In this document: positions 4,294-23,303 of the stretch, in pieces
Layout: the number at the start of each line of letters is the position of its first letter
Numbering within the stretch: position 1 is the stretch's first letter
Source: Candidatus Synechococcus calcipolaris G9
Lineage (GTDB): Bacteria > Cyanobacteriota > Cyanobacteriia > Thermosynechococcales > Thermosynechococcaceae
Direction: 5' to 3'
Assembly (NCBI RefSeq): GCF_029582805.1
Contig: NZ_JAKKUT010000002.1
Span: forward strand, 830,001 to 894,000
DNA: 64,000 bases
Notes under the pieces: generated by a model
Told to the model about the DNA's origin: nothing
Database searches by the model: none
Seen by the model: the letters and a program-made list of their open reading frames with translations, nothing else
Translations under genes and position numbers: made by a program

Positions 4294-5556
4294 GTGGCGA
4301 TCGTGAACACGTGGATTCAGCGAAGTGACTACCAACTCATTTATGATCATTTGCTTGACTGTGTGCAAAACGAAACGCCACAGCAGGTGATGGAGCGGTT
4401 TCGAGCATTGTTCATCATGGGGTACACCTACCCGGATCGTTCTGTGCAAGGGGCACTGGATCAGATCGTGGGCGATCGCAATGCCGAGCATAATTTCAAG
4501 CTTTTTATTAATCGCTGTTGCCACATTCTGGTTAATCGTTGGCAGAAGCGGCCCTTGCTCCATGGGGCAATCCCAGAATTTTTAGCTCTCCTGGAAACAC
4601 CCATTGCCATGCCCGCCGGTGGACTGAGCCGGGCCACCATTGTCCGCAGACTACGACTTCTATTTAAGGGCTATCTAGAGAGCGAATACTACCAAAAGCT
4701 GCAACGGGTGGCCCAGTTCGTGGGTGAGGATCACCGGGATCTGTCCTCCATTCGTCGCAATACCGATCGCCCTCTGAGTTCTCTCATTCGTCGTTATCCT
4801 TACCTTTACGATCATTGCCTCATTGGGGACGAGACGACTGCTGAAGAAAAAAGCTTTATTATGAGATCCCAATCTAAAATTCAGCAACAGTTTGAGTTAG
4901 ATCTTTCCAACTACCTGACGACGGAGTTTCGGATTGGTAACGGCAATACAGTCATTGCCCCAGTCAAAAATCCGACCCTCCTCAGCGATACGGAATTGAA
5001 AACCTCCCTGAAGCACTTTGTTGGCAAAGTAGACGGCCGCCAGACCTATCGGGATATGGCCCAGCAGTTTAACCAGCAAACCGCCAAGAATAAATCCACG
5101 GAAGCCTTTAAGCGCGAGTTTTACCACTATCTCACGGATACCAGTGGGGTTAGCTTTGGCAATGGTCGGTTTCGGCAGCGATTCGAGCAATACATCAAGA
5201 CGTTGCCCGCCCTCCAGCAGACCCACCAATTGAATGATTTTGCATTAGTGCGTACCTGTAGCCAAACCCTCAATTACCTGGTGGTGGATAGTGCCCAAAA
5301 TCCAAATCACCTTGTCTTTGTGGATCTGCTCAACAATATTGGTACCCCTGCGACCATTGGTCTGCTTCTAAAGATTGTCCTCGTATCTAAAAAAGTGAAG
5401 CCTTACCTAGAGAAGCGGTTTGCAATTCTGTTTAACCATTACCAGTCGTTTAATCGCGGCAAGGTCAAATGGTTGGTGAACTGCCTAGAGAACTTCAATA
5501 TTGCCACGGCCACCCATTTTGGTCGCCAAGACTTTTCCTTTTTCTCTAAACTCTAG
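4294..5556 (+). CDS. Conserved hypothetical protein (420 aa)
   Basis: GTG start at 4294 preceded by an AGGAG sequence. The protein is soluble, mostly helical and rich in Arg, Gln and Tyr, with no signal peptide or membrane segment and no catalytic motif that I recognise. The reading frame has normal cyanobacterial codon use, and its length and composition suggest a real gene. It lies convergent to chlD, with only 35 bases between the stop codons. No function can be given. Confidence 0.75.
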   Translation: MAIVNTWIQRSDYQLIYDHLLDCVQNETPQQVMERFRALFIMGYTYPDRSVQGALDQIVGDRNAEHNFKLFINRCCHILVNRWQKRPLLHGAIPEFLALLETPIAMPAGGLSRATIVRRLRLLFKGYLESEYYQKLQRVAQFVGEDHRDLSSIRRNTDRPLSSLIRRYPYLYDHCLIGDETTAEEKSFIMRSQSKIQQQFELDLSNYLTTEFRIGNGNTVIAPVKNPTLLSDTELKTSLKHFVGKVDGRQTYRDMAQQFNQQTAKNKSTEAFKREFYHYLTDTSGVSFGNGRFRQRFEQYIKTLPALQQTHQLNDFALVRTCSQTLNYLVVDSAQNPNHLVFVDLLNNIGTPATIGLLLKIVLVSKKVKPYLEKRFAILFNHYQSFNRGKVKWLVNCLENFNIATATHFGRQDFSFFSKL

Positions 5557-5591
5557 TAAGTTATAGAAATTATAGATTTCTCTCAAATTCC

Positions 5592-7598
5592 TTAAAAGTT
5601 CAGGGCATTTTGAGTCACGGTGGCGATCGCCTGATCCGTAGCCTTGGGTAGGTGATAGTATTTGCCCCCGGCTTGGGTTGCCAGATCCTTTGCCATCCCC
5701 GTCGATACAAAGCGATTTTCCGTATCAATTACCAAGAGTTTCAGACCGAGGCCCTGGATTTTAGCGGCAATATCTAATAACTCTCCCTTAATATCCGGCT
5801 TTTCCCCCTCTGGTAGCGGATCCCCTAGGGAACGCGCTAGGGGGATATTACCACGCCCATCGGTAATGGCCACAATCATCACCTGGCCAATATCGCCAGA
5901 CTGACGGGCATTCATGCCGACGCGAACCGCTTGGGTGAGTCCATGGGCCAGGGGAGAGCCGCCACCACAGGGCAAGGTTTCCAGACGACGGCGGGCCGCT
6001 TCAATGGATCGGGTGGGGGGGAGGAGAACCTCTGCCTGTTCACCCCGGAAGGGAATCAGGGCAATCATGTCGCGGTTTTGGTAGGCCTGGGTGAGTAATC
6101 GCAGGACGGCGCCCTTGGCAGAATTCATCCGATTGAGGGCCATGGAACCCGAGGCATCCACAACAAATATAATTAAGGCTCCGGCTTTGCGGGCTAGGCG
6201 TTTAATCCGTAGATCATTGGATTCAACAATGACCTTCCGGTGGGGCTGGCGCAGTCGTCGCGATTGTTGATAGGGTGCTGCCGTTCGCAGGGTTGCATCT
6301 ACGGCAATGCGTCCGCCTCGACCCCTGGGTAAAATGGGCCGGACATAGCGACCCCGATCCTGGGAATAGACTAAACTGCGACTGCCCGATTTCCCTTGGC
6401 GTTGGGATAGTTGGGCAAAGTAGAGGACGGAATCATCTAAAACCGTACCATCCGCATCAAAAACAAATTCCTCAGGAACCGGTGGCATTTCCTCGGGATC
6501 TGATTCTGGGGGGTCGCTCTCGTCCTCGTCTGGCTCATCCGGATCTTGCTGATCCTCCATTTGGTTATTGGGGGGAGGAGGTGGTGGGGGTGGTGAGGGC
6601 GTTTCCACTTGCGTCGCCCGGGGAACAATGACTAACTCGACGGCGCGGCGCAGATCTTCAGCAGTGACATCAGCGCGACCATTCAGGGCCGCATGGGCCC
6701 GGGCAACCCCCACGGCAAAGAGTTCGGCTCGGTGGCCCTGCACCCCTGCCCGGAGGGCCTCGGTCACTAAGTAGGCAATTTGTTGGCGTTGAATGCGGAC
6801 ATCTTTTAGCCATTCCCGTGCCAGAATAATTTGGGTTTTGAGATCATCCAGTTCGGGGGTGTATTCAGCTAAGAAGGCTTCTGGAGAATGGGCAAAGGCA
6901 GTAACTTGATCTACGGCAGCTACCCGTTCATCTAATCCGAGGACAGTATCCGCAGACAGGGCGATGGCAATGCGATCCAGTAAATGGGGCCGTAGTTCCC
7001 CTTCCTCGGGGTTGTAGGTGGCAATAAGTAGGGGGCGACAGGCGTGTTGAATACTAATGCCTTCCCGCTCAATTTGATTTCGCCCTTGGGTCAACGTGGT
7101 AAGTAATAAATTTGCAATTTGCTCATCCAGAAGATTAATTTCATCCACGTACAGGACTCCCCGATGGGCGGCGGCTAGGAGTCCCGGCTGGAAGACCGCT
7201 TCCCCACGCTGGACGGATTGACTCACATCCACGGAACCCAGTAACCGATCTTCAGTAATGCCCAGGGGAATTTGAATAAATGGTGCGGGAATCACTTCCC
7301 TCTCTAGGGTTTTGCCATGACTCCAGGCCAGGAGGGTGATGTCCCAATCCTGGGGGCGATCGGGATCAGGGTTGGCAAAGATGCGGGGAGCATCACTGGC
7401 GATCGCCGGCTGAATGACCTCAATGGGCGGCAAAAGGTGATGAATGGCCCGGGCCAGGACAGATTTAGCGGTTCCTCGCCGGCCAGCAATGACGACTCCC
7501 CCTAAGCCTGGGTCGATCGCCGCTAAAAGTAGGGCTAGTTTAATGGCTTCTTGGCCAATAACGGCGGTCAGGGGAAAATCGACGGTTTTCAGGGCCAT
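5592..7598 (-). CDS. chlD: Magnesium chelatase subunit D
   Basis: ChlD forms, with ChlI and ChlH, the ATP-dependent enzyme that inserts Mg into protoporphyrin IX, the first committed step of chlorophyll synthesis. The 668 residues show an N-terminal AAA+ module with a Walker A-like GRRGTAKS near residue 37, a proline run followed by an acidic Asp/Glu/Pro-rich linker (about 340-385), and a C-terminal integrin-type vWA domain with the MIDAS motif DASGSM. This order is diagnostic of ChlD. Met16 of the longest frame (7598) is chosen as start because the family begins close to [10 protein letters not shown]; the longest frame would start at 7643. Confidence 0.95.
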
Positions 7599-7829
7599 AG
7601 ACGGAATATATACAGGATTGACATCTACAGCTATCTTACGCAATTTTTTGTTTAATTTTTGGCTTTCAGAGTTTCAGGGGTCTTGGGATTGTCATCGGGT
7701 TGTGGTTCACCTGTCACACCGCTGAAATATACCTTTCCTAGATTGGTTACTGTCCACCTTGGTAAAGTTTTTCTGGGCTGTCCCTAAACGGATCATCCAG
7801 GAGGGCTTGCTAGGTTACATCGCTGAGCC

Positions 7830-8489
7830 ATGAATTTCCTATCTTTGTTGCCGATCGCCATTGCCCTGAGTCTGGATAGTTTTGGAGTAGGTGTCACCTA
7901 TGGGGCCCGCCGTCTCCGAGTCCCCCTGGGATCTCTGGGCATTATTACCCTTTGCACGGGTCTGAGTTTAGTCATTGCTGTTCTGATTGGGGATTTGCTC
8001 GTTGCCCTACTGTCTAAGGAATTAACCGAGTCCATTGGTGGATTCCTATTGGTGGCGATCGGGCTGTATGCGGTGATTAATCATTTCAAATCCCAATTAC
8101 AGCGATCCTCAAAACCCCTGGATTACCACGCCAACCCGACGGATCGGCCCGGGTATCACCCCCCGGAACACGAAAATTTAGGGGTCATTCCAGAGATTCT
8201 CCAGGATCCCATGGCCGCCGACTTCGACCACTCCAACTCCATTTCCTTGCAGGAGGCCTTCTTTTTGGGGCTGGCCCTCTCCATTGATTCCTTTGTGGCG
8301 GGGGTGAGTATTCGCCTGTTGGGATATTCTCCCTGGCTGATTATTTTTACCATTGCCATGATGAGTAGTATCTTTCTCTACATTGGCATTCAAACTGGAA
8401 TCATGATTGCTGGCCACCGTTGGCTGAAACAACTCCCCTATTTTCCCAGCACGATGTTGATTGTGATTGGACTCCATAAAATCTTTTAG
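7830..8489 (+). CDS. MntP/YtaF-like membrane transporter
   Basis: 219 residues with six predicted membrane segments arranged as two halves, each opening with an Asp-Ser-Phe motif ([12 protein letters not shown] near residue 15 and [10 protein letters not shown] near 155). This internal repeat of a membrane-embedded Asp is typical of the MntP manganese exporter and the related YtaF family. The hydrophilic loop between the halves (about 88-135) is His/Pro/Asp-rich, as in YtaF-type proteins. Manganese export is plausible in a photosynthetic cell but is not shown by the sequence. It converges with the IPP isomerase gene, overlapping it by 4 bases. Confidence 0.75.
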
Positions 8490-9529
8490 GGATTTCTGAG
8501 TAATGAACTTCCCTGATGGAGTTGGCTAAGGTTCTTACAACCAGTACAAAATAAAACGGTTTTTAGTTCCCCTAGGGTGATCTCAATATGTTCAAATAAG
8601 GCTTCTTCGGAAATATGGGCCGCTTGCAGAAACGGTCGGGCCAGCCCCCCCAGATCAGCTCCCAGGGCGATCGCCTTGGCCACGTCTAACCCATTCTTGA
8701 GACCGCCAGAGGCAATCAAAGGATAGTCCGGGTGGTTTTCACGAATATCCTGAAGACAGTCCGCCGTAGGAATCCCCCAGTCCGCAAAGGTTTGCCCCAA
8801 GGCGCGTTGGCGAGGATCCGTGGCCCGCGCTGCTTCCACCTTGGCCCAGGAGGTTCCTCCCGCACCGGCGACATCAATGGCCGCTACCCCAGCCTGGATC
8901 AGCTGATCGGCGATCGCCCCGGAAATACCATTCCCCACCTCTTTGACAATGACGGGTACCTCTAATTGCTGGCACAGATCCCTGATTTTGGGCAGGAGTC
9001 CCTTAAAGTTGCGATCGCCTCGGGTTTGCACCGCCTCCTGAAGCGGATTGAGATGGAGAATCAGGGCATTGGCATCTAAAATTTTAATAATTTTGCCACA
9101 GTCGTCCACCCCACAGCCATAGTTCAATTGCACCGCGCCAATATTTGCCAAGAGGGGAGTATCCGGGGCAACCTCTCGCACGGCAAAGGTTTCGGCGATT
9201 TGCGGTTGCTCCAATAACACTCGTTGGGAACCGACACCCATGGGAATCCGAAAATGTTGAGCGGCACGGGCTAACCGACGATTAATTTTTCCCGCTAGGG
9301 CCGTTCCCCCCGTCATGGATGAAATTAATAAAGGGGCCGCTAAGGGCCATCCCAAAAAGGTGGTCTGAATATCCAGATCATCAAAATCTAATTCAGGTAA
9401 ACAGGTATGACGAAAGCGATAGCGTTCCAGCCCTGTGGAGACAAGGGGTGATTCCACATCCCCATGGATGCAAATATCTAGGTGCTCAGCCTTACGATGC
9501 TCAATGTCACTAGCACGGGGATTATTCAT
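8486..9529 (-). CDS. fni: Type 2 isopentenyl-diphosphate delta-isomerase
   Basis: A 347-residue FMN-dependent TIM-barrel enzyme that interconverts isopentenyl and dimethylallyl diphosphate for carotenoid, phytol and quinone synthesis. Seen in order: RKAEHLDIC near the N-terminus, [41 protein letters not shown], and ASGGLKNG near the C-terminus. All are conserved in type 2 enzymes and absent from the metal-dependent type 1. The length is standard. It lies 7 bases downstream of the response-regulator gene on the same strand, so the two may be co-transcribed. Confidence 0.95.
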
Positions 9530-11516: not shown

Positions 11517-11738
11517 TTCCCACTGAATAGAGCATGTTCCTTAAACCCATTTCTAGGGCAACTTGACTGATAGGCTTGCCTGACTACTTCACAATTGCCA
11601 CAGCTACTGACCGATGGTCAGGAAAATTCTCTTTTTCTTCAGTAGTAAACGTTCGTCTTGGTTTTTGGCTCATTTGGACATTCTCCTTCATTGGCGACTC
11701 TTGGAGTTTGTCCACTTTTTTTAGTCAGGGTCAGGCAT
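11517..11738 (-). mobile_element. IS3-family remnant (orfA start and one end)
   Basis: On the minus strand an ATG at 11673, preceded by a GGAGA ribosome site, reads MSQKPRRTFTTEEKENF and continues into AVAIVK, an in-frame TAG, then SGKPISQVALEMGLRNMLYS. That is the helix-turn-helix start of an IS3-family OrfA with one nonsense codon. Upstream, 11711-11738 reads like an IS3 terminal end (TGACCCTGACTAAAAAAAG on the minus strand). The rest of the transposase (orfB, other end) is absent. This is a dead fragment joined directly to the broken Uma2 gene. Confidence 0.7.
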
Positions 11739-11781
11739 AATGTTCGCGCTCACCAGACGCAGATAAAATCGCAACTCCACA

Positions 11782-11816
11782 AGCAATCCTGATCTGTCCG
11801 CTGTACCAGGATTGCT
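11782..11816. terminator. Perfect 10-bp hairpin 3' of the Uma2 gene
   Basis: AGCAATCCTG and CAGGATTGCT form a perfect 10-base stem around a 15-base loop, just downstream of the minus-strand Uma2 stop codon. There is no T-run after it, so intrinsic termination is uncertain; it may instead stabilise the 3' end of the transcript. Confidence 0.4.
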
Positions 11817-11828
11817 ATGCCGCGATCG

Positions 11829-12455
11829 CTACCTACCGGCCCTCAACACTTGTTCAGCCGTCAGTTTCAAACCTGAGAAAGTTGAAGAAACAATCGTCTG
11901 ACTGCCTCGAAATTGCTGAATTTCATACTCTCCATCTACTAGCGTACAGATAGAGAGGGTGGGTTGTTTGGGCTTCCCAATATGTCGAGTACCCCCTAAT
12001 CCTGCGTAGTCTGCAATCCAATATTCAGGGATGCCTAACGCTGCGTAGTCTTCAAGCTTACGAGCATAATCATTTTGCCAGTTGCTACTTACAACTTCCG
12101 CTACAAATTTAATCGAAGTGCCTAGAGTCAAGATCGACTGGTCATACCAAAGCGGCTCTTGGGTCAGTTCACCTTGATCGACAACTGCGATATCAGGACG
12201 AAATGTCGTCATACCAGTTTTAGAAGGGCGCAACAGCCCCCGCTGGAGGACAAACCAAGGTAAACCTAATCCGTCGATCTGAACACATATCTTCGTCGTT
12301 ATGAAGGCTGCAACCTCCTCATGCAAGCCTGTTGGTTCCAAGTCGAACACCTCTCCGTCGATTAGTTCGTAGCGGTTATCATCACGGTAATGAGCGAGAA
12401 ACTCGTCAACGCTAAGTAGCTTCTGTTGAATTGCGTGATCGACTGTAATAGCCAT
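11829..12455 (-). CDS. Uma2 family (DUF820) endonuclease-like protein
   Basis: 208 residues with the PD-(D/E)xK-type fold signature of Uma2 proteins: YELIDGEV near residue 29, RPDIAVVD near 88, the acid in FVAEVVS near 117, and RKLEDYAALGIPEYWIAD supplying the Lys and the last strand. These proteins are very abundant in cyanobacterial genomes, often in many copies, and their biological role is not established. It appears intact, unlike the remnant 300 bases away. Confidence 0.85.
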   Translation of the reverse strand: MAITVDHAIQQKLLSVDEFLAHYRDDNRYELIDGEVFDLEPTGLHEEVAAFITTKICVQIDGLGLPWFVLQRGLLRPSKTGMTTFRPDIAVVDQGELTQEPLWYDQSILTLGTSIKFVAEVVSSNWQNDYARKLEDYAALGIPEYWIADYAGLGGTRHIGKPKQPTLSICTLVDGEYEIQQFRGSQTIVSSTFSGLKLTAEQVLRAGR

Positions 12456-12593
12456 AAGTCAACTTAGCCTAATCAGTGCCTCAAGTCTACCAAATTGAGT
12501 ATGTAAAACGCATGACCAATCGAGCCTCTGACTGCTTTGCCTTGAAGTACTAGTAGGCAGTCTTGCGACTAAACCCAATCTAAGGATCAAGCG

Positions 12594-12690
12594 GCATAAC
12601 CGCCTTCGCTTCACCGGCGCAAAAGAGATTTTAGACAATCCCACAGCCATTGCATAGACCTGAGCGTTCGAGTGCAAGCAACTGTTAATT
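12594..12690. other. Weak attC-like site
   Basis: GCATAAC at the left and GTTAATT at the right bracket 97 bases. Next to them TTCGCTTCAC and GTGCAAGCAA can pair over nine base pairs with two single-base bulges, the layout of an integron attC site. The outer boxes fit the consensus poorly and the stem is short. It matters because, together with the site at 13463-13550, it would bracket the RelB/YafQ pair. The 12456-12867 gap otherwise shows no convincing gene. Confidence 0.3.
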
Positions 12691-12867
12691 TGTAGGAATG
12701 AGGATATGTTAATTGCCCCCACAAACCTTACCAAAGGCAAGAGGCGATCGCGCTTGCGCCTTCGTACCATTTTGTGATACAAATCGAATACAAACTACAG
12801 CATATTAATCTTTTTCTTCAGCACATCTGAGCTAAAGGTACGAGGTTTCTAGCGAGAAGGTTTACCC

Positions 12868-13125
12868 ATGAAAACTCAGACAACAAAAGTTCAAGCAAGG
12901 ATGAGCCCAAACCTAAAAGCAAGGGCAGAGGAGATTTTTGCTGAGTTGGGGATTACGTCAACCGAGGCGATCCGTATGTTGTATCAACAGGTGATACTCC
13001 GTCGAGGTTTGCCTTTTGCAGTAGAAATTCCAAATGAGATTACGTTGGCTGCGATCGCAGAAGCAGAAGATCCTGAGCGATTGGAGACTGTTGACGATAT
13101 TGACGTTTTTCTGGCAAGCCTTTAG
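12868..13125 (+). CDS. RelB/DinJ-family antitoxin
   Basis: 85 residues with the ribbon-helix-helix N-terminus of RelB/DinJ antitoxins (TTKVQARMSPNLKARAEEIF then GITSTEAIRMLYQQV) and an acidic C-terminus (AEDPERLETVDDIDVFL) of the kind that wraps the toxin. It would bind its own promoter and neutralise the toxin encoded 20 bases downstream. Confidence 0.85.
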   Translation: MKTQTTKVQARMSPNLKARAEEIFAELGITSTEAIRMLYQQVILRRGLPFAVEIPNEITLAAIAEAEDPERLETVDDIDVFLASL

Positions 13126-13145
13126 TGTTTACCAAAGACTAATTA

Positions 13146-13439
13146 GTGCGTGAGGAAAAAATTACCAGTCAATTCAAGAAAGATGCAAGGGCTGCTAAAG
13201 CTCGCGGTAAAGACATGGCTAAGCTGGCATCTGTCATCAAAAAACTTCAAGCAGATGAACCACTGGACTCCCGTTATAAGGATCATGTTCTTCTTGGGGG
13301 TTGGAAGCCAAAAAGGGAATGTCATATCGAACCAGACTGGCTCTTGATTTATGACACCTCGCAGCCAGGGTTACTGATCTTAGTCAGAACAGGCAGCCAC
13401 TCTGATCTATTTGAAAAGACTAAGCGGAAGAAAAAATAG
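13146..13439 (+). CDS. YafQ-family mRNA interferase toxin
   Basis: 97 residues, GTG start. It has the YafQ pattern of a basic N-terminal helix pair and a C-terminal core with histidines and acids in HIEPDWLLIYD and RTGSHSDLF, corresponding by position to the catalytic His/Asp set of E. coli YafQ (here H60, D64, D70, H85). YafQ cleaves mRNA on the ribosome. All core residues are present, so it is probably active. It is paired with the RelB/DinJ antitoxin, and its stop is 23 bases before an attC-like site. Confidence 0.85.
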   Translation: MREEKITSQFKKDARAAKARGKDMAKLASVIKKLQADEPLDSRYKDHVLLGGWKPKRECHIEPDWLLIYDTSQPGLLILVRTGSHSDLFEKTKRKKK

Positions 13440-13462: not shown

Positions 13463-13550
13463 ACCTAACGGTATAGTTCAGCGGTGGTGAGGGACGATCG
13501 CCTCGTGACATAGCTCTATGGATCCCGTCCGTTGCAACGCCATATTAGGC
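13463..13550 (-). other. attC-like recombination site 1
   Basis: An 88-base imperfect palindrome. On the plus strand it opens with ACCTAAC and closes with ATTAGGC (R boxes). Inside, GTTCAGCGG pairs with CCGTTGCAAC over nine pairs with a single bulged base, the hallmark of integron attC L boxes; the inner part holds CATAG-CT-CTATG. Read on the minus strand its crossover box is GTTAGGT, a perfect GTTRRRY. I assign minus orientation because the adjoining 6-kb operon reads that way. Confidence 0.7.
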
Positions 13551-13719
13551 TGAGGCGCGGATTAGAGGGCCGCTCAACCTAATTTTTCAGTATAGACATA
13601 AATCTTGCAACTGGGGCGAGATCGAGATCGCTCTTCACGACAGGTGCGCTGACAAGACCAATGCTCTCCCAGTAACCAGAAGTGAACAAGGCGAAGAGGT
13701 TCCCAGCGCAGTAGCATAA
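13463..13719 (-). repeat. Small cassette, copy 1
   Basis: A unit of about 257 bases running on the minus strand from a GTTATGC box (13714-13720) to attC-like site 1. It is strongly similar to a second copy at 19777-20015, most clearly over 13465-13670 with few differences at constant offset 6314. A short minus-strand reading frame ending GLVSAPVVKSDLDLAPVARF plus seven residues is kept in both copies, but I find no good start for it. The two copies bracket the three-gene operon. Confidence 0.75.
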
Positions 13720-13800
13720 CGTTCCTGCTGAGCGGCTGCATGTAGCCTTTGCAACACAACCAAAATCTCCCAACAGTCCGCTCCAGCAGGTTTGTTAGCT
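13714..13800 (-). other. attC-like recombination site of the 6-kb cassette
   Basis: An 87-base site. The outer boxes are GCATAAC and GTTAGCT on the plus strand. Three bases inside each are CCTGCTGAGCGG and CCGCTCCAGCAGG, which pair perfectly over 12 base pairs with exactly one extrahelical base. Equal 3-base spacers, one bulge and a long unpaired centre are the structural definition of an attC site. On the minus strand it lies just 3' of the STAND gene, where the attC of a cassette carrying that operon should be. Confidence 0.75.
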
Positions 13801-13963: not shown

Positions 13964-16900
13964 TCATTCATAGCGCTTGATAAAAATGTACACGACATAA
14001 GCTGGATCTGGGCGATTGGAACTATTAAAGAATTTGTTAGCTAGGTTCGATGAATATTGACGTTCGCCCCAGACAGCCCAAACAAGAGCAAGATTATTTT
14101 CCTTAAGGAAGTCTCTCAATAATTCCTCCCGTATGTAGAACATTGACTGGCTATTGTTGAAATCATCGCTACGATCAGAAAATTCATATGTTGCTCTCAC
14201 CCCTTTAGTTGTAACCAGATCGAAAGTTTGTGATTGACCGATTAGTTTCAAATCTGAGGCAATCTCTTTTGCTAATGTAGTGGCATGGCTAACATTATTG
14301 GCAATGCTACGACTACTTTCCCAACGAAAGTCGCAGACCGGAATGAGTGCATGATATGTGATTATATCTTGCTGTACTTCCTTAACCTCCACAAGTATTT
14401 CACGGACTTCAATACGTTCAAGTTCTTCTTCGCTGAGTTTTTGATCGTCCTCATCGTATGCGTTAACACCTAATAAGCGAAGTCTAACTATATCGACATG
14501 ACTCAAATCTAGCTGTTTACCATCTAAAAAGAATCTTGGTTCCATCCGCTCAACTTGAACAGTCTCCTCCTTCACAACGAACGAGAACTCACAAGCGCTA
14601 TTTTCAGGAAACGTTTCACACCACGGAATCTCGCCTGAAAACGTATAGCCAACCGATGGCTTTTCAGGCAACCATCTTCCACCTAAGTTTTGATTGGATA
14701 GATGCTCTAAAAAAGAATCAGCCTCGCTAGACAAGACGAGAAAACTTCGGATGAAGCAAAAAATATTTCGACCAAGAGTTTCGTTTTCCTGTGCTATATA
14801 GCCATCTAACATAACCCAAGGCCCAGCTTCGTTTTGAATCTCCGCTATTTGAAGATAGGGGTTTACATCAGGTAGTGCTCCATTGGTGATCCATTCCTTC
14901 ATCTCCATGTCAGGATCGCCAAGGAAGTCTGCGTGTATAAGGTGAACCTTTGGTGACTGCTCTGGAAAACTTGGGTCAATATCTAGATCCCAGTTCCAAT
15001 CACGCTCACTGGATCTCTCAATTTTTCCTAAATCATGTAACAGACCAGTCATCTCATAGAAGGCAATCCATGAATACTTCTTCCCATAGCGCTCTATCTT
15101 CTTAGTATCACTTCCTGTTCTATTCCAGCGGTGCTCGTTTTCTATTGAGCTTTCAATATCCTTAAACTTTTCACTTGACCATCCAAGCTGCTCGATTCGC
15201 CAAAGAATTTGTGATCTGACTTTGCTATACTCAGCGTTTTGGAAATCATAGTTGCTGCGACCTGGCACCAAACTTCCGATAGTATAGTTTTCAAAATCCA
15301 TTCCTAATGGTGAATCTGCACCATAACGCCTTTCTCTAGATTCTTCACTTTCGCCCCAATCGCGAAGTCCCCCTTCAAATGGAGCTTTACTTCTTTGAAT
15401 CTCCTCAGAAGTGAAAAGCTCAGGATGATGTATAGAAACCATTTCTATAATTCGGCTTCCGTACTCTCTCATGAGGGAATGTGTAGTGCTAAATGGTGCG
15501 CTTTCTGCAAACATTGAGTCATAGATACTCCGCACATAGGTCGGTAAGGTTTCAGTCACAAACGTTTGGTCGCCTAAATCCACATGCCGTGCCATTGCAA
15601 CTCCATAGCTTGCAGCAAGCATTCGCTCTGGGACATAAGGATCATTAATTGCAAGTGCCGTTAAGCTCTCTTCAAATAGTGCTGCGGGGTTTCTCCGTCC
15701 AAACCAGTACAATGCACGGGTTGCTACATCACGAAGTTCTCGGTCTGTAGAGGTCAAAAGCCACATGACCCACTTTGCACGCAGTCGATCAGAATCAGTC
15801 CGAAAGTCCTGCTGTTGTTTCCACCTACCCTCTATTGCTAGTAGATCGTTCAATCTCTCGGATCGTGTTTCTCGAATCCACTCAGTCCAGATAAGATCTC
15901 GCCCAGAAACTGACATTGCTCGGAGTGTTTCATCAAGAAAAGCAGCATTAAGTGGGTGGAGCGCTACTGCACGGGCTACTTGAAATCGAACGAATAGACG
16001 ACTTCTAAATCTTGAGGATTCATGTGAAAGGCTCAATAAAGCGCTTACTGTCTCTTGGTCTAAATACTCTGCATCTATTTCAGCCGCCAATGCAATAGCG
16101 TTTTTCTTTAACGGCTCTGATACATGCCGCCAAATTTGTTTCCCTTGCATTCGGCGTGGAGTCAGTGTGACCAGAGATCCAAGTATGTCAAATGCCAATT
16201 CGTGGCTAGTATTACCAGTAAATAGTGCAACAATCTCAGGGTTATTCAGCCAAGCAAAGGAAGTATCCCGCGCGTATTTAGTGAGAAGAGCATTAGCGAC
16301 AATATACCCTCCCAATGCATCATAAGTTGGCGTGACTACATACTCATACGGTTCAAAACCTGGGTTCTTGAAGAGAATCCCTTCCTGTGCCAGAAGATTA
16401 ACGATACTGCTATTCCATGAACGAGAAGCATCAGATGCTGCATCACGAAAGCTTGCCTCGCTAACCTCTCGCTTCCCACACTTCCATAATTCAATTCCAA
16501 GTACGTAAACTGCTCTATCCACTTCATTTGCAGCGTAACTATGGCTGAGGTTAGTCATCTGTGAAATGCGCTCAGCAGCATTAGCAACATATTTTTCAAA
16601 TAGTGGTGCAAGCGAAGTAGGAAAATAATCAATCTTGACTTCAGATTCTTTTTTCGGGTTGGTGACCTCGCAGAATATTCTCAACGTTAGTGGGTGTTGT
16701 AAAAACTCCGCAGGAATCTCTGAATCGCCGGGGTCTATTTTGAAGTGGCTAAAATACTTTTCGATCGCCTCATCAACATCACCTCCAAACCCCTCACTTT
16801 CTATTGTCTTTATGCCATCAGGAAGAGCCATGACTGCAAATGATTCTCTAGTCTCAGTTTGTGACTCTCGATACTGATGCCAATCTTCCTTCTTCCGTTC

Positions 16901-18226
16901 TCCAGTTCTTAATGTGCAGACTACTAGAACGTTAGGAAATTTCTTCATAATCTCGCTAAGTGAAGCTAATTCAGGCTTCCAATCTTTGGGATTCTCAGCT
17001 TCGTTAAGTCCATCAATTAAGATTGGTAATCGACAACAAGAACGTTTACCAGCCGCATCTACTGCTGCCATTAACATCTCTATGCTCGGCATAGGAATGC
17101 CATTAATTGAGATGCTTTTTGCAAGATCGTCAAGAGACTGCCCTCTGTGAAGATTACGACCTTGGAGAAAAACGCCAGCAGGTCTCTTCTCCTGGGGAGC
17201 AGTTAATTGAGCAGCCATCTGCGTTTTACCACTACCTGCATCTGCTAAAACCCCAACCAGACCAACTCCGAGAAATTCTTCAGCTTCGTCGAGGAGTTCT
17301 TGCGCTGTGTACATATCGTCTAGCGCGTTAGTGGCATGTAGTGCTGCTGGATGGTTTGCAGACCGTAAGTGTCTAGGAGTCGAGCGAACGTCTATATTGA
17401 TTAATATTTTGCGTTCCTTTAGTTTTTGCTGGATAACATCAAGGTCTCCATCTGCAAGGATTTGATGAAAATTGATCAGAGTATCAGCAAACGCTGAGCA
17501 AGCATCAATAAAAGAGGTTATGTAGGGTTTTAATCTGGGTACAGCGCCGTCTAACTCACACGATAGTAAGTCAGATATGTTCTTCAAATGCTCCCCGACT
17601 TCAATCAATTGTCCCCATGAGTCAACCTCTCCCAGCATTCGCCGAATCATCCGCTCGGCATCAACGGCTTGGTGGACTGGTACTAGCCAGCGCTCTTGAA
17701 TTGGCTGAATTGCTATCCTGTGTCGTTCTGCGAGATTACTTGGAGTTAAAACCTGCTCACCAAAGTAGGTGCTTCTGAGTATTAGGGCATCGCCACTTAG
17801 GTAAGTATCAACTTCTTCCTCAGCCCATAAGTGCAAATTGTATTGTGTCGAAAGACTGTGATACCAAGCCTGGTCTTTCTTACTGAGAGTATAGGGTGTC
17901 CAAAGAACCCAATCTGTGAGGTCTGGTAATACTCTTTCAGTAGTTGCAAGTGAATGTTCAATATCTTGACGACTTGCTGCATTTAGTGTTCCATCTTTAT
18001 TCCGCTGGTATAGTTTACATTGCCATCCAAACCAACGAGATGCATTGCCAAGCTGACATGGTTCAGTCAGTTTTATGTGAAATTCAACCCCAGGTTGATT
18101 AGCCAAAGCTTTGAAATCTCCAAATCGTCCATATTGCAGTCTTACGAGACCACGACATAGATTTTCAAAGTTACGGGTCTTGTCACCTGGAAGTGAATCA
18201 AATTTTGTCCAGTCTAGAGAAGGCAT
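13964..18226 (-). CDS. STAND NTPase with N-terminal restriction-nuclease-like domain
   Basis: A 1420-residue protein. Residues 1-140 look like a PD-(D/E)xK nuclease domain of Mrr type: FENLCRGLV around E21, E48 in PGVEFHI and the Q-x-K motif Q69-K71 in WFGWQCKLY. A P-loop NTPase of the STAND class follows, with Walker A ADAGSGKT at about 328-335, Walker B LPILIDGLNE ending at about 409, and an Arg-bearing CTLRTGER near 437. The remaining 900 residues are helical repeat-like (LRDVATRALYWFGRR) and end in a mixed alpha/beta region. Nuclease, STAND ATPase and long repeat sensor is the architecture of Avs-type antiphage proteins, which recognise a phage protein, assemble and cleave DNA. It is the last gene of an operon, 17 bases after the DUF6375-like gene. 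Defence is inferred; the nuclease assignment is moderately sure, the NTPase assignment very sure. Confidence 0.8.
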   Translation of the reverse strand: MPSLDWTKFDSLPGDKTRNFENLCRGLVRLQYGRFGDFKALANQPGVEFHIKLTEPCQLGNASRWFGWQCKLYQRNKDGTLNAASRQDIEHSLATTERVLPDLTDWVLWTPYTLSKKDQAWYHSLSTQYNLHLWAEEEVDTYLSGDALILRSTYFGEQVLTPSNLAERHRIAIQPIQERWLVPVHQAVDAERMIRRMLGEVDSWGQLIEVGEHLKNISDLLSCELDGAVPRLKPYITSFIDACSAFADTLINFHQILADGDLDVIQQKLKERKILINIDVRSTPRHLRSANHPAALHATNALDDMYTAQELLDEAEEFLGVGLVGVLADAGSGKTQMAAQLTAPQEKRPAGVFLQGRNLHRGQSLDDLAKSISINGIPMPSIEMLMAAVDAAGKRSCCRLPILIDGLNEAENPKDWKPELASLSEIMKKFPNVLVVCTLRTGERKKEDWHQYRESQTETRESFAVMALPDGIKTIESEGFGGDVDEAIEKYFSHFKIDPGDSEIPAEFLQHPLTLRIFCEVTNPKKESEVKIDYFPTSLAPLFEKYVANAAERISQMTNLSHSYAANEVDRAVYVLGIELWKCGKREVSEASFRDAASDASRSWNSSIVNLLAQEGILFKNPGFEPYEYVVTPTYDALGGYIVANALLTKYARDTSFAWLNNPEIVALFTGNTSHELAFDILGSLVTLTPRRMQGKQIWRHVSEPLKKNAIALAAEIDAEYLDQETVSALLSLSHESSRFRSRLFVRFQVARAVALHPLNAAFLDETLRAMSVSGRDLIWTEWIRETRSERLNDLLAIEGRWKQQQDFRTDSDRLRAKWVMWLLTSTDRELRDVATRALYWFGRRNPAALFEESLTALAINDPYVPERMLAASYGVAMARHVDLGDQTFVTETLPTYVRSIYDSMFAESAPFSTTHSLMREYGSRIIEMVSIHHPELFTSEEIQRSKAPFEGGLRDWGESEESRERRYGADSPLGMDFENYTIGSLVPGRSNYDFQNAEYSKVRSQILWRIEQLGWSSEKFKDIESSIENEHRWNRTGSDTKKIERYGKKYSWIAFYEMTGLLHDLGKIERSSERDWNWDLDIDPSFPEQSPKVHLIHADFLGDPDMEMKEWITNGALPDVNPYLQIAEIQNEAGPWVMLDGYIAQENETLGRNIFCFIRSFLVLSSEADSFLEHLSNQNLGGRWLPEKPSVGYTFSGEIPWCETFPENSACEFSFVVKEETVQVERMEPRFFLDGKQLDLSHVDIVRLRLLGVNAYDEDDQKLSEEELERIEVREILVEVKEVQQDIITYHALIPVCDFRWESSRSIANNVSHATTLAKEIASDLKLIGQSQTFDLVTTKGVRATYEFSDRSDDFNNSQSMFYIREELLRDFLKENNLALVWAVWGERQYSSNLANKFFNSSNRPDPAYVVYIFIKRYE

Positions 18227-18243
18227 TGCAGTATCTTAAAAGT

Positions 18244-18639
18244 CTATTTACCCCGACCATAATCAGTATCTGGGTAATCATGAGCTGAAAAAATCTCAAT
18301 TTTTGCTCCTCTATCAATCATAAGCTTGATAAAAGCAGAAACGTCCGATTCATCAGTAGTTAGAATCAATTTGTCTTCTTCTATTCGAGTGCTTATGTCA
18401 TACAAAAATTGCTCAAGTTCCAGAGGCCCAAGAGTATAGATATTTGCATCCTTTAAAAGAGCAAAAACTTCATCCTCAAATCGGTTTCGAGTTCTGCCAA
18501 CTTCTATTTTGTCAGTAAACTTTTCAGTAAGCTGGTCAATTGTTTGTTTGGTTTTTCTCGCGTCATCAACGCTCTTAAACTGCCCAATCATCACTAGATT
18601 CATTGAGTGCTCAGATCCATAGCCACGCCAAACTTTCAT
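18244..18639 (-). CDS. DUF6375-like small protein
   Basis: 131 residues starting MKVWRGYGSEHSMNLVMIG, which I recall as the opening of DUF6375 proteins; this is from memory. It alternates strands and helices (a ferredoxin-like alpha/beta pattern, with FKSVDDARKTKQTIDQL as the first helix) and has no cysteine, signal or membrane segment. Its start overlaps the stop of the radical SAM gene by 4 bases (ATGA), which implies translational coupling, and the STAND gene follows at once. A partner or substrate-presenting role for the radical SAM enzyme is possible but not shown. Confidence 0.7.
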   Translation of the reverse strand: MKVWRGYGSEHSMNLVMIGQFKSVDDARKTKQTIDQLTEKFTDKIEVGRTRNRFEDEVFALLKDANIYTLGPLELEQFLYDISTRIEEDKLILTTDESDVSAFIKLMIDRGAKIEIFSAHDYPDTDYGRGK

Positions 18640-19586
18640 GAAGTCACCTCCTGGTTGCTTGTAGCTAACTTATAAAGTGCTGGCATCACTCTATCTTCAG
18701 TAATCCGAACACCGTCGGTACTATATGAGGTTCGTTTCAAAATTCCTGAAGCATCTATGTGGGCAAAAGCCTCTAATCCTGTTTCCGCAATAAGGGGATT
18801 ACAGGTCGGAAGTCCATCAGCACCACTCTCGCTGACTGCAAGGGGAATAAATCCACGGTAGTTAGCCACCCATTCTTGCAATATCCTACGAGTATCGCTA
18901 TCAATCCCGCTAGTTCTTAGAGTGGCTTCTTCAGGCAAGAGTAAGAATTCAGAGCAGCCAAATTCCTCCGCGAGATCAATAGCTTTATCAAGATCATCAA
19001 TAGTTTTCGAGTTAACCACAAAGTTGATGCCAAATGGAAAACTTTTACTAAGTGCCCTGATACGTTGAATCAAGGTAGCAAAAAGTCTTCCTCGGAGAGA
19101 TTCATAGGTGGCTTCAACCCCATCCATACTCACTCTGATGAAATTCACATTCCCTGCAAGATCTTTAAGAAGTCGATCGCTGAGATGATGGGCATGAGTG
19201 GTCATGGTAACAGCCAAACCCGTTTTTTCGGCTGTGTACGAGCAGAGTTCTGCGAGCCGAGGATACAGAGTTGGTTCCCCACCCCCGAAGCCCACACCAA
19301 TGCAACCATTAGCATCTAAATCAGTTAGCCAATTCGTTAACCGCTCAAAATTCAACACGGCAGGATTTTTCGGTGCGTAGCAGTGAGGGCATGCAAGATC
19401 GCAAGCATTTGTCAATGCAATTGACACCTGGCGTGGAGCATTCGACCACATACTTGGAGGTAAACTGATTTCATTTACTAAGAGATTCAAGCCAGTGTTT
19501 CGATTGAATAAATGTAAACCTGCGGCTCCGAAACGAATCTTTAAGTGGGAAGTAGTATTGATAGAGAGTTTATTGACTGTAAACAT
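18636..19586 (-). CDS. Radical SAM protein of the STAND operon
   Basis: 316 residues with the CxxxCxxC cluster motif in TNACDLACPHCYAPK (about 61-75), GFGGGEPTLYP as the SAM-binding GGE motif and IRVSMDGVEATYESLRG further on, as in MoaA/SPASM-type radical SAM enzymes. A 55-residue N-terminal extension (GLHLFNRNTGLNLLVNEI) precedes the cluster. The C-terminus carries no SPASM or Twitch cysteine set, so only one cluster is likely. It lacks the motif pattern of viperins. It is the first gene of the three-gene operon and is preceded by an AT-rich promoter region (19587-19776). The substrate is unknown; modification of a protein, peptide or nucleotide is possible. Confidence 0.85.
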   Translation of the reverse strand: MFTVNKLSINTTSHLKIRFGAAGLHLFNRNTGLNLLVNEISLPPSMWSNAPRQVSIALTNACDLACPHCYAPKNPAVLNFERLTNWLTDLDANGCIGVGFGGGEPTLYPRLAELCSYTAEKTGLAVTMTTHAHHLSDRLLKDLAGNVNFIRVSMDGVEATYESLRGRLFATLIQRIRALSKSFPFGINFVVNSKTIDDLDKAIDLAEEFGCSEFLLLPEEATLRTSGIDSDTRRILQEWVANYRGFIPLAVSESGADGLPTCNPLIAETGLEAFAHIDASGILKRTSYSTDGVRITEDRVMPALYKLATSNQEVTS

Positions 19587-19776: not shown

Positions 19777-19864
19777 AGCTAACGGCATAGTTCAGCGGCG
19801 GTGAAGGACGATCGCCCCGTGACATAGCTCTATGGATACCGTCCGTTGCAACGCGGTGTTAGGC
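19777..19864 (-). other. attC-like recombination site 2
   Basis: An 88-base site nearly identical to site 1. On the minus strand it opens with GCCTAAC, a perfect RYYYAAC, and closes with GTTAGCT, one base off GTTRRRY. The L boxes GTTCAGCGG and CCGTTGCAAC pair with a single bulge. It would form the upstream junction of the cassette carrying the three-gene operon. Confidence 0.7.
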
Positions 19865-20015
19865 TGAGGTGCGGATTAGAGGGTCGCTCAACCTAGTATT
19901 CCAGTATAGACATAAATCTTGCAACTGGGGCGAGATCGAGATTGCTCTTCACGACAGGTGCGCTGACAAGACCCATGGTCTCCAAGTGATCAGTAATGAG
20001 AGCGCAGCAGCATAA
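19777..20015 (-). repeat. Small cassette, copy 2
   Basis: Second copy of the unit at 13463-13719, with a short internal deletion relative to copy 1. It also starts, on the minus strand, with a GTTATGC box (20010-20016) and keeps the frame ending GLVSAPVVKSNLDLAPVARF plus a few residues. No complete attC partner remains upstream at 20016-20200; that stretch, up to recJ, shows nothing else. Confidence 0.75.
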
Positions 20016-22591: not shown

Positions 22592-22912
22592 TTAAATGCT
22601 GACCACGGTAGCTTGTCCTTTAGCCACGATCCCTAAAATAGCTAAAACTTGATGTGCTAGAGGTTTGAGATCAGCTAAACGATTGGATGGTGCTTGCAAA
22701 ACAATTACCGCAATATCAAACTGCGGTAAATTTTGTTGGAATGACAGATTCCGATCAACGGTAATGAAAATATCAAACTCTGCTTCTGCAAGGGCAAGAA
22801 GTTTTCCATTCTTGACCCCTGACCATCCCATTTGCGGAACTGTTTTTACTTCGTAGCCAGGAAATTCTCTTGAAAGCCTGCGATCAATACACTCATCCAA
22901 CAGGAGCTTCAT
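22592..22912 (-). CDS. DUF5615 PIN-like toxin
   Basis: 106 residues starting MKLLLDECIDRRLSREF, the DUF5615 opening. Further acids sit in FDIFITVDRNLSFQQN and the chain ends in a typical VLQAPSNRLADL. DUF5615 proteins are PIN-like nucleases paired with DUF433 antitoxins. The start is Met15 of the longer frame, because the DUF433 stop is one base upstream of it, giving tight coupling. Confidence 0.8.
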   Translation of the reverse strand: MKLLLDECIDRRLSREFPGYEVKTVPQMGWSGVKNGKLLALAEAEFDIFITVDRNLSFQQNLPQFDIAVIVLQAPSNRLADLKPLAHQVLAILGIVAKGQATVVSI

Positions 22913-22913
22913 G

Positions 22914-23156
22914 CTATGCCGCCGTACCAATAACCTGTTTCCCAGCCTCTTCAAGTAGGGCGATGACCTGCTCTCTGGTCACAGTTGGAAATCCATCTAA
23001 GAAATCATCTATGGATTCTCCTGCCTTAAGATAGTCCAGTAGCGTTTGAGCAGGAACCCTAGTGCCAGTAAATACTGGAGTGCCGCCCATAATCTCAGGG
23101 GATGCACTAATGATTGGGGAGTTCTTAAGCATAGAACTGTGACCTCTGGTTTCCAT
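22914..23156 (-). CDS. DUF433 antitoxin
   Basis: 80 residues with the DUF433 pattern: a short N-terminus, MGGTPVFTGTRVPAQTLLDYL, SIDDFLDGFPTVTREQVIALL. DUF433 proteins are helix-turn-helix antitoxins for DUF5615 or VapC-like toxins. The gene precedes its toxin by one base. Met9 (23132) may be the true start, since the family core begins there. Confidence 0.8.
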   Translation of the reverse strand: METRGHSSMLKNSPIISASPEIMGGTPVFTGTRVPAQTLLDYLKAGESIDDFLDGFPTVTREQVIALLEEAGKQVIGTAA

Positions 23157-23214: not shown

Positions 23215-23303
23215 GTTTAACAAAGCCCATGTACACCGACCGCTGAAAGTTGTTCTGTTATGATGTAGAGGTTGTCTGCGACGGGTAATGAGCAACGTTA
23301 GGT
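23215..23303. other. attC-like recombination site, isolated
   Basis: 89 bases bracketed by GTTTAAC and GTTAGGT, both perfect matches to the RYYYAAC and GTTRRRY boxes. Three bases inside each, GCCCATGTACACC and GGGTAATGAGC pair over about ten pairs with one mismatch and two single bulges. It lies between the DUF433/DUF5615 pair and a small plus-strand ORF. The fit is better at the outer boxes than in the stem. Confidence 0.4.

Follow-up and report, generated by a model that had tools for sequence, protein, structure and literature searches.

Why should a radical S-adenosylmethionine (SAM) enzyme and a small protein stand directly ahead of a gene that resembles an antiphage receptor? The question is raised by a locus in the 3.3-Mb genome of Candidatus Synechococcus calcipolaris G9, within the 64-kb stretch of DNA analysed here (the window, to which all coordinates refer unless another locus is named). 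Three genes, as read from their open reading frames (ORFs), follow one another on the minus strand: a gene for a radical SAM enzyme (18636-19586; 316 aa; Pfam Radical_SAM PF04055 at 9.9e-17), one for a DUF6375 protein (18244-18639; 131 aa; Pfam PF19902 at 3e-44), and one for a STAND NTPase with an N-terminal Mrr-like nuclease (13964-18226; 1420 aa). The first two genes overlap by 4 bases and a gap of 17 bases separates the second from the third. A preliminary description of this DNA had proposed just such an operon, with a radical SAM enzyme and a DUF6375-like protein as its first two products, and the coordinates and Pfam matches bear it out. The operon has a GC content of 43.1%, against 50.3% in the remaining window; an Rfam scan of the operon region gave no match.

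Our answer, which we hold at marginally better than an even chance, is that the trio is a three-gene antiphage operon from the Avs2-like (AVAST) branch, in which the radical SAM enzyme would modify the tail of DUF6375, and DUF6375 would control the nuclease-STAND protein.

Whether the three genes belong together is a first issue. Used as query against genome contigs, the DUF6375 protein gave 36 loci; in all 36 its gene has the radical SAM gene as its immediate upstream neighbour and the STAND gene as its immediate downstream one, all three being on one strand. The loci belong to Cyanobacteriota, Desulfobacterota, Planctomycetota, Verrucomicrobiota, Nitrospirota, Bacillota, Actinomycetota, Alphaproteobacteria, Gemmatimonadota, Acidobacteriota (Terriglobia), Chloroflexota, Dadabacteria and the Bacteroidota/Rhodothermota group. 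Because this gene order is common to every locus across so many phyla, the trio is a real recurrent unit, beyond chance. Recurrence in other genomes had been fixed beforehand as a point on which the proposal could fail, and every DUF6375 locus of the genome scan has the trio.

Searches of 72,556 plasmids returned an identical set of 16 records for the radical SAM enzyme and for DUF6375 (Vibrio 12, Deinococcus 2, Picosynechococcus 1, Synechococcus 1), and the 15 plasmid STAND genes of the trio's clade all lie among them; in the sixteenth record, from Deinococcus peraridilitoris (L046:8096-10519), insertion sequence (IS) genes occupy the expected STAND position. On the Vibrio plasmid pLH80-1 (L062:2646-9332) the STAND gene is split by IS3. 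Among 246 Streptomycetales genomes a profile of the radical SAM enzyme picked out one decayed locus and four intact ones, each of the four with the trio; at L083:9184-10756, in this order, the STAND gene is gone and the radical SAM-DUF6375 pair has decayed. Of 49 loci, 40 have an overlap of exactly 4 bases between the first two genes. The three proteins also correlate in their pairwise distances (Mantel r 0.79-0.89, a level reached by 0 of 999 permutations). Wherever the flank was readable, no intact STAND gene of the trio's clade was found without the pair (one locus, L095, begins at a contig end). Among 110 flanking genes scanned with PADLOC and Pfam there is no recurrent fourth gene: the commonest Pfam family occurs only twice, and a fourth partner is therefore not indicated. 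DUF6375-like matches within large ORFs of two cyanobacteria were under the cut-off and were left out.

The pair is also found in viral contigs, an observation that raises a different possibility: that the radical SAM enzyme and DUF6375 are a defence or counter-defence module in their own right, joined once to an Avs2-like gene. In two viral contigs the pair occurs, and the full length of each gave no STAND match. One (L070:7555-8903) has the order swapped, DUF6375 then radical SAM, beside genes resembling type III restriction-modification (R-M); the other (L071:8001-9265) is a Mu-like phage contig. Both records may be fragments. A DUF6375 scan of viral contigs gave no match by its patterns, though the radical SAM scan found three such loci. 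Against an independent module, an intact STAND gene is missing from cellular genomes and plasmids only where it is broken or decayed, as in the two IS-disrupted plasmids and the Streptomycetales locus above, and the distances of the pair correlate with those of the STAND protein. We judge such independence very improbable.

The distribution of the trio is rare and patchy. It occurs in 3 of 386 cyanobacterial genomes, in 3 of 231 genomes from the phylum of locus L034 and, in samples of 237 and 239 genomes from two other phyla, in the centre genome only. The trio is found on plasmids, often conjugative Vibrio plasmids, and once directly adjoins BREX genes; genes of type I R-M or PglX-like genes adjoin it at L009, L010 and L032. 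To judge from this gene context – rarity, patchiness, plasmid carriage and R-M or BREX neighbours at several loci – the trio appears to behave like a defence system.

The relation of the STAND protein to Avs2 is central to that view. The PADLOC Avs2 model PDLC02164 covers residues 1-962 at 4.5e-113, and the solved Avs2 structure 9o4e matches at 1.2e-22; NCBIfam Avs2 (NF041813) gives 288.7 bits, below its equivalog cut-off of 1000, and Pfam gives a weak NACHT match, likewise under cut-off. Three regions can be distinguished, all on the minus strand: a nuclease region of Mrr-like, PD-(D/E)xK type (residues 1-165; 17732-18226), with E48, Q69 and K71; a STAND NTPase region (residues 301-560; 16547-17326), with Walker A at 328-335 and Walker B at 400-409; and a C-terminal region (residues 961-1420; 13967-15346), presumed to be the sensor. 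Counted over 36 family members, E48 is kept in 35 and Q69 in 34, position 71 is K in 24 and R in 11 (35 of 36 together), and G331, G333, K334 and T335 of Walker A and D405 and E409 of Walker B are invariant. These are the nuclease residues (E48, Q69-K71) and Walker motifs (A at about 328-335, B to 409) picked out in the preliminary description, which had also likened the layout to Avs/AVAST proteins; the PADLOC match, and the presence of the same nuclease and NTPase motifs in Avs2-type proteins, uphold that likeness.

How close is the likeness? Six Avs2-type proteins without a radical SAM partner have E, Q and K aligned to E48, Q69 and K71, and two more are without the nuclease domain. Identity to these eight is 18-24% in the NTPase region; residues 961-1205 align to Avs2-type proteins at 19-27%, and residues 1206-1420 are divergent and poorly conserved. 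In a tree of 41 radical SAM-linked STAND proteins and only eight unlinked Avs2-type proteins, the linked proteins form a clade of their own, apart from the eight, with support of 0.999; neither a radical SAM enzyme nor DUF6375 was present at any of the eight unlinked loci. By membership, then, sequence comparison makes the protein a sister group of Avs2, outside NCBI's definition of Avs2; by analogy it should act like Avs2 in function. Hints of an HD domain or of a myo-inositol oxygenase in the C-terminus were rejected, the HD residues being unconserved. A motif at residues 1046-1051, RYGKKY, was considered as a specific target of the radical SAM enzyme and rejected because a similar motif occurs in most Avs2-type proteins that lack the enzyme.

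If the STAND protein is the receptor, what is the small protein for? An AlphaFold2 model of DUF6375, built from 37 sequences, has a pLDDT of 83.5, falling below 50 for residues 1-11. After residue 14 the model predicts a ferredoxin-like core: a strand at 15-20, a helix at 24-41, two extra helices, strands at 82-87 and 90-95, a helix at 101-109 and a strand at 113-118. Foldseek returned only generic ferredoxin-like folds, none at E <= 0.001, and a weak PDB match to cytochrome c was unsupported by the fold search. Preceding the core is the N-terminal tail (residues 1-14, MKVWRGYGSEHSMN; 18598-18639), with the consensus MK[IV]WxGYGSEHS. In 49 sequences W4, H11 and S12 are invariant, and E10 and G8 are kept in 48; residues 1-14 average 3.59 bits of information, residues 20-131 an average of 2.38. 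A tail that is conserved yet predicted to be unstructured, encoded beside an enzyme gene, has the look of a modification site.

A tail of this kind on a small ferredoxin-like protein would equally suit a docking adaptor: instead of being the substrate, DUF6375 would then guide the radical SAM enzyme to the protein that it modifies, be it the STAND protein or one of the phage. However, W4, H11 and S12 are kept in the tails of both viral pairs, in which no STAND gene was detected; tail conservation therefore follows the radical SAM enzyme, not the STAND protein, on the strength of only two cases. We consider an adaptor improbable.

The enzyme itself has the motifs C62-x3-C66-x2-C69, GGGEP (101-105) and T129-T-H131-x-H133. 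C62, C66 and C69, which form the CxxxCxxC cluster motif, are invariant in 49 of 49 sequences and, together with the PF04055 domain, place it in the radical SAM superfamily; the unusual T-T-H-x-H motif (129-133) also belongs to the conserved set. In its C-terminus no auxiliary-cluster (SPASM) cysteine is conserved: only C262 recurs, in 27 of 49, and 13 of 49 sequences have no cysteine past residue 205. The chemistry may therefore differ from that of SkfB and SuiB, the maturases of ribosomally synthesized and post-translationally modified peptides (RiPPs) that head the structural matches: for an AlphaFold2 model with a pLDDT of 90, Foldseek ranks SkfB first, then SuiB (also peptide-bound SuiB), then viperin. 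Unconserved auxiliary cysteines thus set the enzyme apart from typical SPASM maturases, and a score under the viperin cut-off sets it apart from viperins. A large 'methyltransferase' of Salmonella phage Arash (L084:3542-4972) was considered as a radical SAM locus and rejected: just the enzyme's N-terminal third is alike (34% identity over 102 residues) and there is no DUF6375 gene nearby.

The nearness of viperin deserves a closer look. Were the enzyme to make a small antiviral or signal molecule such as a modified nucleotide, DUF6375 would be its partner subunit and the STAND protein a second layer of defence or the receptor. Prokaryotic viperin (pVip) is the enzyme's best PADLOC match (7.5e-21), viperin is the best NCBIfam family, the viperin fold comes right after SkfB and SuiB, and the enzyme shares with viperin a single cluster. 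But the NCBIfam score is 56.7 bits with a cut-off of 180, and PqqE scores nearly as high (53.5 bits); the viperin match is therefore generic. Synthesis of a small molecule would, moreover, leave the conserved, disordered tail of DUF6375 unexplained. This we regard as unlikely, if a little less so than the adaptor.

Modification of DUF6375 by the radical SAM enzyme is most likely, going by indirect evidence: the conserved unstructured tail, the predicted RiPP-maturase-like fold, the 4-base overlap of the genes and the occurrence of the pair where no STAND gene was detected. Under this reading the tail would be the substrate and the ferredoxin-like core the docking domain for the enzyme. The STAND protein would be the effector: its C-terminal part would sense infection, its NTPase part would drive assembly and its N-terminal nuclease would cut DNA, steps that have been demonstrated for Avs1-4 (PMC12931631). 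As a subunit acting on the STAND protein, DUF6375 would license it, restrain it or serve in sensing, and its modification state would help either to set the nuclease or to trigger it. We infer that the enzyme acts catalytically on the tail, that DUF6375 binds the STAND protein, that control runs from the one to the other, and that the trio serves in phage defence. Several observations weigh against modification of the tail and control by DUF6375: the viral pairs without a STAND match; the enzyme's lack of the SPASM cysteines of SkfB and SuiB; viperin, almost as near by fold and the best NCBIfam family even below its cut-off; the replacement of K71 by R in 11 of 36 nucleases; and the low-confidence tail, which might fold only within a complex and be no substrate.

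A further issue is what the modification would convey. We think it plausible, if somewhat short of an even chance, that the state of an NLR-like receptor (nucleotide-binding, leucine-rich repeat) is set here by radical SAM modification of a dedicated small protein, either as a licensing mark or as a bait reporting phage attack on SAM or iron-sulphur metabolism. Taken in full, the second option makes the radical SAM-DUF6375 pair a bait and the STAND protein a guard that watches DUF6375 modification: phage attack on the SAM supply (by SAM-degrading enzymes, for example), on iron-sulphur clusters or on translation would halt modification, and unmodified DUF6375 would fire the nuclease. Such a guard would account for an enzyme and small partner that are inseparable from a STAND sensor, and for a tail that is conserved and disordered; indirect sensing by a bacterial NLR is moreover on record for bNACHT25, which senses through the host protein DnaJ (PMC12169576). 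On the other side, control in this direction is conjectural, and the C-terminal region of the STAND protein is common to Avs2-type proteins that sense phage proteins directly. We place this guard at perhaps one chance among several: unlikely, though less so than the viperin-like alternative.

The flanks of the trio hint at how it may have come to this genome. Scanning for a simple attC pattern gave too much noise; in its place a covariance model was used, built solely from four attC sites in a different cassette array of this genome. It found three strong attC-like sites in the window (36-46 bits), all on the minus strand (13463-13550, 13714-13799, 19778-19864), and two weak ones (about 15 bits) at 11735-11820 (minus) and 23215-23303 (plus). 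The trio lies exactly between the upstream site, which marks the cassette start (19864-19778; 43.2 bits, E 1.2e-8), and the downstream site, the trio cassette's own (13799-13714; 46.5 bits, E 1.7e-9), both oriented as the genes are, as befits a cassette. A 90%-identical locus in a Scytonema metagenome-assembled genome aligns as far as 19783, which is the attC core site, and at the other end as far as 13756, which falls within the second attC. A 221-nt direct repeat, 90% identical, lies on both sides of the trio (13465-13685, 19779-19999) and combines an attC site with a portion of a short mini-cassette that is non-coding; a third copy (G000:C2:682670-682816, in L100) is 78% identical. Folding the flanking repeats as DNA showed no signal. 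The genome yielded no functional integron integrase, only a broken remnant (L105, G000:C2:1914500-1918500, at 1734-2174): a 146-aa frame matching TIGR02249 positions 1-64, its core apparently deleted. The trio may once have moved as an integron cassette; at three genes and 6 kb the cassette would be unusually large.

The second array of the genome (L100, G000:C2:676000-690000, at 4945-9405) has at least four attC sites and, as assigned by eye, holds a MazEF-type pair, a GNAT-like gene, the mini-cassette and a DUF4238-like gene. On the Vibrio harveyi plasmid p345-185 (L043:9045-16873) the trio lies just ahead of qnrVC6 and dfrA6, and the sequence after these looks integron-like by eye. In the window itself the trio has as neighbours a Uma2-family endonuclease gene and also a toxin-antitoxin pair of RelB/YafQ type (11829-13439 and 22592-23156); past a recJ-like gene there is a DUF433-DUF5615 pair.

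Is the trio a system already described? The preliminary description knew of no AVAST type with a radical SAM enzyme and such a small protein. Its further remark, that it did not know the set as a described system, is supported: PADLOC does report the STAND gene alone as Avs2, but the protein fails the NCBIfam cut-off and stands in a clade of its own, and among the named systems in the libraries and literature searched none has both a radical SAM enzyme and DUF6375. None of the 5.39 million papers searched mentions DUF6375 or joins radical SAM to Avs2, most subscription papers, preprints outside PMC and supplementary lists being beyond their scope, so that the operon may have been listed earlier; nor did we find in this literature a radical SAM switch in any STAND system, Avs and NACHT included. 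No bacterial relatives of NLRs are better understood than the Avs proteins, which are believed to recognise phage proteins directly. A widespread branch in which a radical SAM enzyme and a small protein are retained would give the arming or triggering of these receptors a further, chemical layer: radical modification of protein. The trio also gives DUF6375 its first functional context.

Comparison with known systems sharpens the picture. AVAST type 1 has a metallo-beta-lactamase-fold protein and a protease as partners, and type 3 a small protein; like the trio, both set an Avs gene beside dedicated partner genes, and to our knowledge neither has a radical SAM enzyme among them. With Avs2 (AVAST type 2) the STAND protein has in common its nuclease residues, Walker A and B motifs, size and C-terminal homology to about residue 1205; it differs in its separate clade, its score under the NCBIfam cut-off and its bond to a radical SAM enzyme and DUF6375. 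SkfB and SuiB, the best structural matches, have the radical SAM core fold and an adjacent small partner gene, as in the trio, whereas the trio's enzyme is without SPASM or auxiliary cysteines and its partner is a folded, conserved 131-aa protein rather than a short precursor peptide. Like the trio's enzyme, pVip is a radical SAM enzyme with a single cluster and is found in a defence context, and its fold is the next closest; the low viperin score sets the trio's enzyme apart from it. The nearest published idea comes from the FtsH ternary conflict systems (Kaur et al. 2020, PMC7159879), where a radical SAM enzyme is joined by a peptide proposed as effector. Their core is vWA-MoxR-FtsH and not an Avs-type nuclease-STAND protein, and DUF6375 goes unmentioned; what they share with the trio is an NTP-dependent conflict operon in which the proposed substrate of a radical SAM enzyme is encoded by a neighbouring gene. 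Carried by bacteria of many phyla, the trio points to an undescribed type of immune system, a branch of the Avs2-like receptors.

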